The notes under the pieces are model-generated. The model was not told the DNA's origin, made no database searches, and worked only from the letters and a program-made list of their open reading frames with translations. The position numbers and the translations under genes were made by a program. DNA of 64,000 nt from an uncultured Clostridia bacterium (lineage in GTDB: Bacteria; Bacillota; Clostridia; Christensenellales; Borkfalkiaceae), in the NCBI GenBank assembly GCA_949286835.1, contig CASEDP010000004.1, forward strand, positions 1 through 64,000. Direction: 5' to 3'. This document shows positions 26,362 to 27,932 of this stretch, one piece after another (within the stretch, counting starts at the first letter, position 1; the number at the start of each line of letters is the position of its first letter).

Positions 26362-27027
26362 ATGAACGAACAAAGAAGGATGACAAGAAAGAAACTGCTG
26401 ACGAGAGCGCTCATCGTTGCGGCGTGCCTTATGGTTATTGCCGCCGTGACAGTAACCTGCGTTTTCGCGGCGAACGACTGGGGCAGAAATCTTTCGACGG
26501 TTGACCAGGACGACAAGGACGAAATCAAAAACCCCGATGACGACAAGGACGAGGACAACACGCCCGACGACGATGACGAACAGGACGATGACGATACGCC
26601 CACTTCCGGAGAGACGACTTTTGCCCTCCCCGTGAGCGATGTCGACATAGTGACGGGTTACGTTTTCTGCAAGGACGTAACTTTGGGGCACTATCACTTC
26701 CACAGCGGGCTTGACTTTGCCGCAGACGCGGGCACCGAAGTCGTTTCCTGCCTGGACGGCACGATTGAAAGCATTGTAGTCGGCGACAGGCTTGACGGCA
26801 CGACGGTTACAATCGCACACGACAACGGGCTCAAGACGGTGTACTCGTATATCGACGCAGCAGAAGGGCTTGAAGCGGGACAGAGCGTGGAACGCGGTCA
26901 GGCGATAGGCACCGTGGCAGAGGCAAACGGCGCGGAACTCGCCCTCGGACCCCATCTCCACTTTGCCGTATACGAAAACGGCGAACTCACCAACCCCGAG
27001 GACTTCCTTGAAATAGCCGAAAAATAG
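26362..27027 (+). CDS. M23 (LytM) family peptidase, SpoIIQ-like
   Basis: A 221-residue single-pass membrane protein: membrane helix at about 17-37, a very acidic Asp-rich linker (about 48-80), then a LytM domain. The zinc ligands are intact: H114 and D118 in HSGLD, and H198/H200 in GPHLHF. An intact site suggests an active endopeptidase against peptidoglycan cross-links, unlike Bacillus SpoIIQ, whose site is degenerate; clostridial SpoIIQ proteins often keep it. The topology and single LytM domain fit SpoIIQ, but no spoIID is nearby, so a vegetative cell-wall role is equally possible. AAGGAG precedes the ATG. Confidence 0.72.
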   Translation: MNEQRRMTRKKLLTRALIVAACLMVIAAVTVTCVFAANDWGRNLSTVDQDDKDEIKNPDDDKDEDNTPDDDDEQDDDDTPTSGETTFALPVSDVDIVTGYVFCKDVTLGHYHFHSGLDFAADAGTEVVSCLDGTIESIVVGDRLDGTTVTIAHDNGLKTVYSYIDAAEGLEAGQSVERGQAIGTVAEANGAELALGPHLHFAVYENGELTNPEDFLEIAEK

Positions 27028-27092: not shown

Positions 27093-27304
27093 ATTATGCC
27101 GAATAAAGCGTTTATCGCCCCGTAAAACGGGTTATATATGAGGCGGAGTAAAAAATGTGAATTTCCGTATAAATATGGGATTTTTGATAGTTTTCAACAA
27201 AATATTAAATTTCACACTTTAAATTCACATATTTTATCGAGATTATCATATAGTAATGTTATAAACAAACAATTATGGCATTTGAAAAATTTTTTAATAT
27301 GTTA
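27093..27304 (+). promoter_or_regulatory. AT-rich region upstream of the small-peptide unit with repeated TGTGAAATT motifs
   Basis: This stretch is visibly poorer in G and C than its surroundings. TGTGAATTT occurs at 27156-27164, and its inverse AAATTTCACA at 27207-27216 and AAATTCACA at 27221-27229. The inverted and repeated arrangement upstream of a promoter suggests operator or activator sites. No convincing gene is seen; a 36-codon frame from 27275 lacks a ribosome binding site. Confidence 0.4.
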
Positions 27305-27333
27305 TTGACTAACATTACCGCAGATGCTATACT
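27305..27333 (+). promoter_or_regulatory. Strong promoter of the small-peptide unit
   Basis: TTGACT (27305-27310), 17-bp spacer, TATACT (27328-27333), with TGC directly before the -10 (extended -10). A leader of about 90 nt with a small GGGC/GCCC hairpin follows. Confidence 0.75.
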
Positions 27334-27427
27334 ACAACCAGAAAGGGCAAAGAAGCCCGACCGAAATCAAAGACAAACAGGGTGATACGACCTGATTTGA
27401 AGATACCTGCAAGGAGGTACAAAATAT

Positions 27428-27526
27428 ATGGATATGATTTATGAAAGGCTTTCAAGTCTTGAAGAGAAAAATGAACTTTTCGGGGTAAGCCCACTTTCCT
27501 ACGTCGTTCTTGACTGTGCGAGATAA
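27428..27526 (+). CDS. Small peptide 1 (32 residues), paralogue of the peptide at 27762
   Basis: An ATG preceded by AAGGAGGTAC encodes 32 residues starting MDMIYERLSSLEEK and ending GVSPLSYVVLDCAR. It aligns without gaps to the peptide at 27762, with 14 of 32 positions identical; both share Y5, E6, L8, S9, L11, GVSPL at 19-23, YV at 25-26 and a terminal Arg. The first half is charged and amphipathic, the second hydrophobic. There is no signal peptide, and one Cys near the end. DNA identity is much lower than would follow a recent duplication, so the shared residues were kept by selection. I do not recognise the family. Confidence 0.65.
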   Translation: MDMIYERLSSLEEKNELFGVSPLSYVVLDCAR

Positions 27527-27584
27527 GGCTTAAACATTTACACTGACAAGAGAATAATTCCAAATTAAAAAGCGAGGTAATATT

Positions 27585-27689
27585 ATGAGTAATTTATTTA
27601 AAACCTTCTTAATTTCGATGAACATGGCAACCTGGACTGCTCAGGGTTCTGCAAGCAGCCGTCTTTCCATGTGGTCGGGCAACCTCTGA
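27585..27689 (+). CDS. Small peptide 2 (34 residues), between the two paralogues
   Basis: An ATG preceded by AGCGAGGTAATATT encodes 34 residues, starting MSNLFKTFLISMNMATW and ending SRLSMWSGNL. The N-terminal third is hydrophobic with one Lys; the rest is rich in Ser, Thr and small residues with two Trp. It is unrelated in sequence to its neighbours. The stop codon lies in an imperfect hairpin (GGTCGGGCAAC against GTTGCCGCGACC, one bulge) that could regulate read-through into the third gene. Function unknown. Confidence 0.5.
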   Translation: MSNLFKTFLISMNMATWTAQGSASSRLSMWSGNL

Positions 27690-27761
27690 AAGTTGCCGCG
27701 ACCGCGCAGACGCGCGGCTATGTTCTGCCAAAGACAATAATTCAATAAGGGAGGTGCTGTT

Positions 27762-27860
27762 ATGACAGATTTTTACGAGAGCTTGTCTGAACTCGATAAC
27801 GATAAAAATGCGATCGGCGTATCACCCCTCGCATATGTATTGTTCACGATGGGCAGATAA
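27762..27860 (+). CDS. Small peptide 3 (32 residues), paralogue of the peptide at 27428
   Basis: An ATG preceded by AAGGGAGGTGCTGTT encodes 32 residues, starting MTDFYESLSELDNDK and ending GVSPLAYVLFTMGR. It has the same length and gap-free alignment as peptide 1. The acidic first half (D3, E6, E10, D12, D14) and hydrophobic second half ending in Gly-Arg are retained, but the Cys is replaced by Met. It is the last gene before a strong terminator. The family and function are unknown; options include a signalling peptide, a toxin-like peptide or a small protein cofactor. Confidence 0.65.
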   Translation: MTDFYESLSELDNDKNAIGVSPLAYVLFTMGR

Positions 27861-27892
27861 CGAAAGATAAAACTGCTTAAAATTTAAGGCTA

Positions 27893-27932
27893 TGCGCCGC
27901 GGCGAAAATTTCGCCGCGGCGCAATTTTTTTT
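27893..27932 (+). terminator. Terminator of the small-peptide unit
   Basis: TGCGCCGCGGCGA (27893-27905) pairs perfectly with TCGCCGCGGCGCA (27911-27923), followed by A and eight T (27925-27932). Confidence 0.9.

Follow-up and report, generated by a model that had tools for sequence, protein, structure and literature searches.

Three very small open reading frames (ORFs) in the window, by which we mean the whole stretch of 64,000 nucleotides analysed here, are real genes kept by purifying selection, and together they form one copy of a genus-wide module made of a promoter and one or more microproteins. The host group is most likely the genus Candidatus Coproplasma, uncultured bacteria of the animal gut; the window's own genome is an assembly of 1.57 Mb in 23 contigs. 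An earlier note had described the three ORFs as an autonomous unit from the letters of the window. The unit is indeed autonomous and real, but it is not peculiar to one genome.

The promoter and the terminator that bracket the three ORFs (32, 34 and 32 aa) are present where the note had placed them, as a check of the sequence confirms, and each ORF has the Shine-Dalgarno named for it, see Table 1. The unit is also AT-rich as described, with a GC fraction of 0.35-0.45 over the unit against 0.49-0.59 in the 500-base steps clear of it. Among the ten annotated neighbours in the window there is no peptide-modifying enzyme, peptide exporter or receptor, again in agreement with the note. The GC-rich hairpin between peptides 2 and 3 could tune the expression of peptide 3.

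Table 1. Features of the unit, its promoter-operator module and its left neighbour, in window positions.
Feature	Position	Strand	Remarks
M23 peptidase gene, conserved left neighbour, outside the unit	26362..27027	+	resembles SpoIIQ, scoring under the cut-off of that model
Upstream promoter element, TTMACA box, TTATC..TTATCATA, gap-free in genus	27220..27256	+	column frequencies, 80 distinct promoters anchored on -35
Palindrome TGTTA-N5-TAACA, one mismatch here, predicted operator 1	27257..27271	+	
A/T-tract	27276..27299	+	conserved A and T runs
Palindrome TGTTATTGACTAACA overlapping -35, predicted operator 2	27300..27314	+	
Sigma-70-type promoter, TTGACT-17-TATACT, extended -10 TG	27305..27333	+	-35 27305-27310, TG 27325-27326, -10 27328-27333
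Shine-Dalgarno AAGGAGGT of peptide 1	27411..27418	+	
Peptide 1, 32 aa, class A, MDMIYERLSSLEEKNELFGVSPLSYVVLDCAR	27428..27526	+	dN/dS 0.09-0.12
Shine-Dalgarno GAGGT of peptide 2	27574..27578	+	
Peptide 2, 34 aa, a kind of its own, MATW motif	27585..27689	+	clear relatives in three other genomes; dN/dS 0.13 and 0.23 vs window
Short GC hairpin between peptides 2 and 3, without full T-run	27702..27717	+	
Shine-Dalgarno GGGAGGT of peptide 3	27749..27755	+	
Peptide 3, 32 aa, divergent class A without Cys, MTDFYESLSELDNDKNAIGVSPLAYVLFTMGR	27762..27860	+	dN/dS 0.15 and 0.29 vs window
Intrinsic terminator of the unit	27893..27932	+	14-bp stem 27893-27923 plus T-run

A gap-free alignment of peptides 1 and 3 gives 14 identities in 32 positions, a number that peptide 3, shuffled 200,000 times with its Met left in place, never reaches. 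The proposal that they are old paralogues is upheld by orthologues of both in two related species, G082 and G090, where the orthologues of peptides 1, 2 and 3 stand in the same order. Compared with the window, the orthologues of peptides 1 and 3 keep 25-27 of 32 residues, whereas paralogues share 12-14, so the duplication predates these species. Selection on the amino acid sequence, which the note had deduced from the alignment, is evident from a dN/dS of 0.09-0.29 within the unit; for peptide 2 the values are 0.13 and 0.23 in two pairs with the window, the third pair being saturated. The wider family of peptides like 1 and 3, here called class A, has a median dN/dS of 0.20, with values below 1 in 99.7% of the 311 unsaturated pairs (of 498 pairs at 60% identity or more), although the independent tests are fewer than the pairs because the pairs share ancestry. 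When the check that the note had set in advance as its own refutation was run, frame-preserving homologues turned out to be widespread and dN/dS far below 1. Finally, in 83 of the 85 genus-wide units described below, 157 ORFs of 26-48 aa with ATG and Shine-Dalgarno lie on the coding strand where the reverse strand has 1 and base-shuffled sequence 1.9, in a comparison that somewhat favours the coding strand, as the stretches stop just past its last ORF.

The family of peptides 1 and 3 is found in 72 of 93 genomes of the genus, with 1-5 matches each and every best match at E <=2.4e-9 (31-member profile). Peptide 2 has clear relatives in G090, G082 and G184 among the 61 genus genomes searched. 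In a sample of 396 genomes from the order, strong profile matches occur in 9, all of the same genus; 16 genomes of other genera match just part of the profile, at E values of 0.005 and higher, and 12 of their 17 matches lie inside frames longer than 100 aa. A collection of 84,980 species yields 37 related loci, all labelled Clostridia, Clostridiales, Christensenella or Coproplasma, four of them Candidatus Coproplasma. Judged by these sequence searches, the family is not convincingly found outside the genus. The protein database holds 299 relatives at E <= 0.1, and the 120 listed are all hypothetical proteins with no Pfam domain. No Pfam or NCBIfam family matches the peptides, and a profile search of PDB gives nothing below E 0.11. 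A phage origin was considered and rejected, since no viral relatives were found and no PHROG matches seven peptides better than E 0.17, as was a structural RNA, since no Rfam family reaches the gathering score (best chance match E 0.25). No paper on the unit was found in our literature search, and four peptide and operator strings are absent from the literature searched. Orphan small families at the level of the genus are common as such: in the portion of the global catalogue paper used here, over half of the families of small proteins are restricted to a single genus, and nearly all lack a Pfam domain (PMC11364881). What is unusual here is that a rigid promoter module is combined with changing tiny proteins.

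The rigidity of the module is clear from an alignment of the upstream DNA across the genus. Its blocks keep the order TTMACA, TTATC..TTATCATA, TGTTA-N5-TAACA, the A/T-tract (which we take to resemble an UP element), the palindrome TGTTATTGACTRACA over the -35 and TGNTATACT, and the whole module spans 114 bp without gaps (window 27220-27333). In 76 of the 80 distinct promoters the distance between the two palindromes is exactly 43 bp, and the upstream palindrome played no part in the promoter search pattern. As the second palindrome covers the -35, we read operator 2 as a repressor site and infer repression through it. The TTMACA/TAACA box occurs three times at spacings of 42 and 43 bp (window 27224-27314), about four helical turns, which suggests proteins bound on one face of the DNA.

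The -35/-10 pattern with at most one mismatch is found in 78 of the 93 genomes, and the reversed-pattern control gives 0. With the fuller pattern (at most two mismatches to 34 bases) 85 promoters are retained, preceding 85 units in 77 genomes. Left out as generic before this count were L230, L217, which has TTATTGACTAACA and lacks both the first palindrome half and a tiny ORF, and L219, L220 and L229, which lie ahead of one long gene. That long gene, starting MKAIRGATTVE, has a different conserved promoter, TTATTGACAAAC..TGATATGCT, at these loci in three genomes. In a search of 331 family genomes, 65 of them of the genus, promoter matches also occur in other genera; among the matches listed, these are without TGACTRACA and mostly TTGACAAAC-like. 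An operator regulon within the window's genome was considered and rejected: the 32 TGTTA-N5-TAACA sites at one mismatch or fewer equal the reversed control in number. Six sites there are exact, the unit's own included, and the other five have no ORF of 26-48 aa with ATG and Shine-Dalgarno within 700 bases on either side.

Behind the constant promoter, the proteins change. ORFs of 18-48 aa, each preceded by a Shine-Dalgarno and with a median of 31 aa, follow each of the 85 promoters: one cistron in 34 units, two in 30, three in 15 and four to six in 6, with two units in each of eight genomes. They encode 161 distinct peptides, L232, already covered as part of L112, and one peptide whose sequence contains unread bases having been left out. 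By letter pattern 106 are class A and 55 are other kinds, although at least one true member of class A (L251, profile E 1.5e-18) is missed by the pattern and counted among the 55. Class A matches are missing from 21 genomes, 17 of which have the M23 neighbour. Six class-A-less genomes (G184, G053, G621, G040, G179 and G620) carry other tiny peptides downstream of M23, with the promoter pattern unmatched at one mismatch in G040 and G621, and five further ones (G237, G202, G610, G224 and G235) have a unit of another kind elsewhere or at an alternative flank. A class A gene or another such unit is thus present in 83 of the 93 genomes (72 plus six plus five).

The kinds that can be named, many peptides being unnamed, keep their order: N or C leads, A follows, and B, D or E comes last. 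Likeness at the C-terminus (..LPLVYLALTNAR, ..ARFYLALSNIR) suggests that some kinds are distant relatives of class A. However, profile scores are E 0.014-0.065 for kind C and 1.3 in the row seen for kind B, while the reversed control reaches 0.043, so this likeness does not establish common descent. G226 and G238 share an identical extra peptide, MDMFSFLNNGVLFCMMNAKKNMEIEENEYMD, flanked in both by genes for an AAA/DUF4143 ATPase and a MalK-like ABC ATPase (L325 and L328; Pfam assignments from the L325 pair).

We suggest, as a possible reading to be held loosely, a microprotein cassette regulon: an old promoter-operator module, whose sequence and spacing are fixed along all 114 bp, would have recruited, duplicated and replaced unrelated tiny genes in a set order, so that the control is inherited while the proteins turn over. 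If this is true, new genes would arise in a permanent nursery governed by a single switch. We know of no parallel to such a rigid promoter module with changing tiny proteins. The units offer a natural series for the birth, duplication and replacement of tiny genes under constant control. Moreover, as these 161 proteins in 85 units share a common promoter, measurable selection and in many cases one chromosomal neighbourhood, the function of the tiny proteins can be tested as a set.

This neighbourhood was compared in 21 stretches, the window and 20 that were fetched. On the left we find YicC in 13, an M1 peptidase in 12, CorA in 11 and the M23 peptidase in 17 (a count made up of two clusters, one being its antisense frame), and on the right a GntR/aminotransferase regulator in 11 (Pfam), which we take to be PdxR-like. 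The closest NCBIfam model to the M23 neighbour is SpoIIQ, at 65 bits with a cut-off of 250. Either flank can be replaced while the unit remains, and the unit looks like a chromosomal fixture rather than a mobile element. An origin from the M23 neighbourhood itself was rejected: M23 is conserved in 25 relatives from 16 other genera, but in the 17 loci that could be anchored (8 could not) it is not followed by a series of tiny ORFs. In several loci of sister genera a long gene that, from its sequence, resembles the M1-peptidase gene comes directly after M23.

The fixed site bears on one explanation of the unit, namely small toxins of a type-I-like sort, silenced by the operators or by an antisense RNA. 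Tandem tiny ORFs, predicted control and tandem duplication are all in its favour. We consider it very unlikely, because purifying selection throughout the genus at a fixed site differs from patchy mobile spread, a consensus scan of the unit's opposite strand finds nothing that resembles a promoter, and none of the 161 peptides is TM-like (19-residue mean hydropathy of 1.6 or more). This last result also disfavours a membrane-insertion toxin among the options first raised for the peptides, a signalling pair, small toxins or subunits of a complex; binding to a partner would fit best.

The class A peptides are near-identical in a C-terminal block and at two tyrosines, while the middle is variable. 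Over the 106 peptides the columns are Y 100%, Y 100%, C 96%, L 94%, V 92%, P 88% and R 86%, and the C-half is more conserved than the N-half. The AlphaFold2 model of 32 residues has two short helices, 3-12 and 22-27, at middling confidence (mean pLDDT 72, pTM 0.28), and does not define how they pack.

The best reading, to which we commit only tentatively, is that the products are microproteins of the cytosol, switchable and highly expressed, which bind a conserved partner protein. The transcription unit, with its one to six genes for tiny proteins behind one shared promoter, is conserved across the genus. A regulator would likely release the two predicted operators, whereupon the peptides would be made in large amounts. 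These products, predicted to be helix-loop-helix microproteins, would probably act in the cytoplasm and may grip their conserved partner as Sda or MciZ do. High output is suggested by the strong extended -10 together with the A/T-tract, and a cytosolic site by the fact that no signal or membrane segment is seen. Partner binding is suggested by the exact residues, beyond hydrophobicity, that are kept along the C-terminal helix to the last Arg; the exact conservation of Pro, Cys and the terminal Arg in class A points to specific contact over mere membrane affinity.

Sda (46 aa) and MciZ (40 aa) are, in the part of the source used, protein-binding microproteins of Bacillus subtilis that each inhibit one partner, and Sda, a pair of helices with a loop between them, attaches to its kinase via a hydrophobic patch (PMC7430163). 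The unit's peptides are similarly very small, but they have no NCBIfam, Pfam or PDB family match, a distinction drawn without direct sequence comparison to Sda or MciZ. Furthermore, they come in one to six tandem cistrons and their partner is predicted, whereas that of Sda and MciZ is known.

Taken as helices, both ends of the class A peptides are amphipathic at 100 degrees, with a mean z of 1.4 and 1.0, and not at 170 degrees, in keeping with partner-binding microproteins. Amphipathic predicted helices in tandem 30-aa peptides without a signal sequence, behind a strong promoter, would also suit peptides that act on membranes and leave the cell with neither leader nor signal, in the manner of phenol-soluble modulins or of leaderless multi-peptide bacteriocins. 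The likeness to the latter extends to size and number: by the part of the source used here they have 26-34 aa and come in sets of three or four, and aureocin A70 and garvicin KS consist of three or four tandem leaderless peptides of ~30 aa (PMC6131525). Tandem peptides of this size are seen in our units too, 34 of the 85 being single-cistron, and minority kinds (MKFIQWLRYINSLLHPNRHSR) look cationic and amphipathic. In charge, however, class A is opposite. It is acidic, with a median net charge of -4 and 0 of 106 peptides at +2 or more, against +2 to +7 in the leaderless bacteriocins and +2 to +5 in the multi-peptide rows of the aureocin A70/garvicin KS type (PMC6131525, the same part). Over all kinds 19 of the 161 peptides reach +2 or more; in the window, peptides 1 and 3 are at -3 and peptide 2 at +2. 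The exact retention of residues including Pro, Cys and the terminal Arg also speaks against membrane activity. No peptide exporter or immunity gene is among the ten annotated neighbours in the window, no bacteriocin companion gene is recognised beside the unit, and neither recurrent neighbour, the M23 peptidase or the GntR/aminotransferase regulator, is a known bacteriocin gene, the neighbours in other genomes having been clustered and few of them annotated. The phenol-soluble modulins of Staphylococcus are, as far as the cited part of the source describes them, small amphipathic helical peptides with several per genome (PMC12607899). The unit's peptides are likewise small and several per genome, and may be amphipathic helices, their moments being moderate. 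They differ in having no Pfam/NCBIfam match and in their predicted fold, in which a conserved loop separates two short helices. On this evidence we regard a membrane-active role as unlikely.

The conserved C-terminal block reaches the last residue and has a Cys within the last six positions in 102 of the 106 class A peptides; with the variable middle and the tandem copies, this is also what a precursor could look like. In that case the N-half would be a leader and the C-terminal GVSPLSYVALNCAR would be cut out, perhaps Cys-cross-linked, to give a RiPP or a peptide signal, the enzymes being encoded elsewhere. In RiPPs the leader is usually more conserved than the core, and here the conservation of the two halves is the reverse. 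Peptide 3, moreover, has no Cys. The genome-wide search for modifying enzymes covered SPASM radical-SAM proteins. SPASM matches are found in 86 of the 93 genus genomes, mostly one each, and the seven genomes without a match (drafts, possibly incomplete) all carry class A genes. The one match in the window's genome is the maturase of the ranthipeptide SCIFF (TIGR03973/TIGR03974), beside its own SCIFF precursor, at a complete locus (L329, G000:C11:50300-52900) with a precursor of 52 aa and a radical-SAM maturase of 451 aa. Like the unit, SCIFF is a small Cys-bearing Clostridia peptide of the same genome, but it has a separate locus and its own precursor with six Cys, whereas class A has one conserved Cys column. 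We therefore doubt that the peptides are precursors.

Returning to cytosolic microproteins that bind a partner, it is uncertain whether one mechanism holds for all kinds, since among the 55 peptides outside class A amphipathicity is weak (mean z 0.73 and 0.27) and the acidic ones are a minority (fraction 0.47). Peptide 2, of another make than class A and with a positive net charge, also counts against this reading. A conserved partner also sits awkwardly with the turnover of peptide kinds at the same site.

As to the protein that reads the operators, a LacI-family gene lies directly upstream of five extra loci, orthologous in L216, L218, L225 and L226 and different in L227. A LacI protein as the dedicated regulator was nevertheless rejected: a match at E <= 1e-45 is present in 20 of the 93 genomes and not in the window's genome, and the two LacI kinds differ in the letters of the recognition helix beside the same operator, so we judge the adjacency to be incidental. 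Extra promoter copies with another tiny peptide are located directly downstream of LacI-family genes at L320, L321, L322, L323 and L324 (G235, G607, G204, G623 and G616, respectively); at L321 the oppositely oriented genes presumably encode a sugar ABC transporter, to judge from their sequence.
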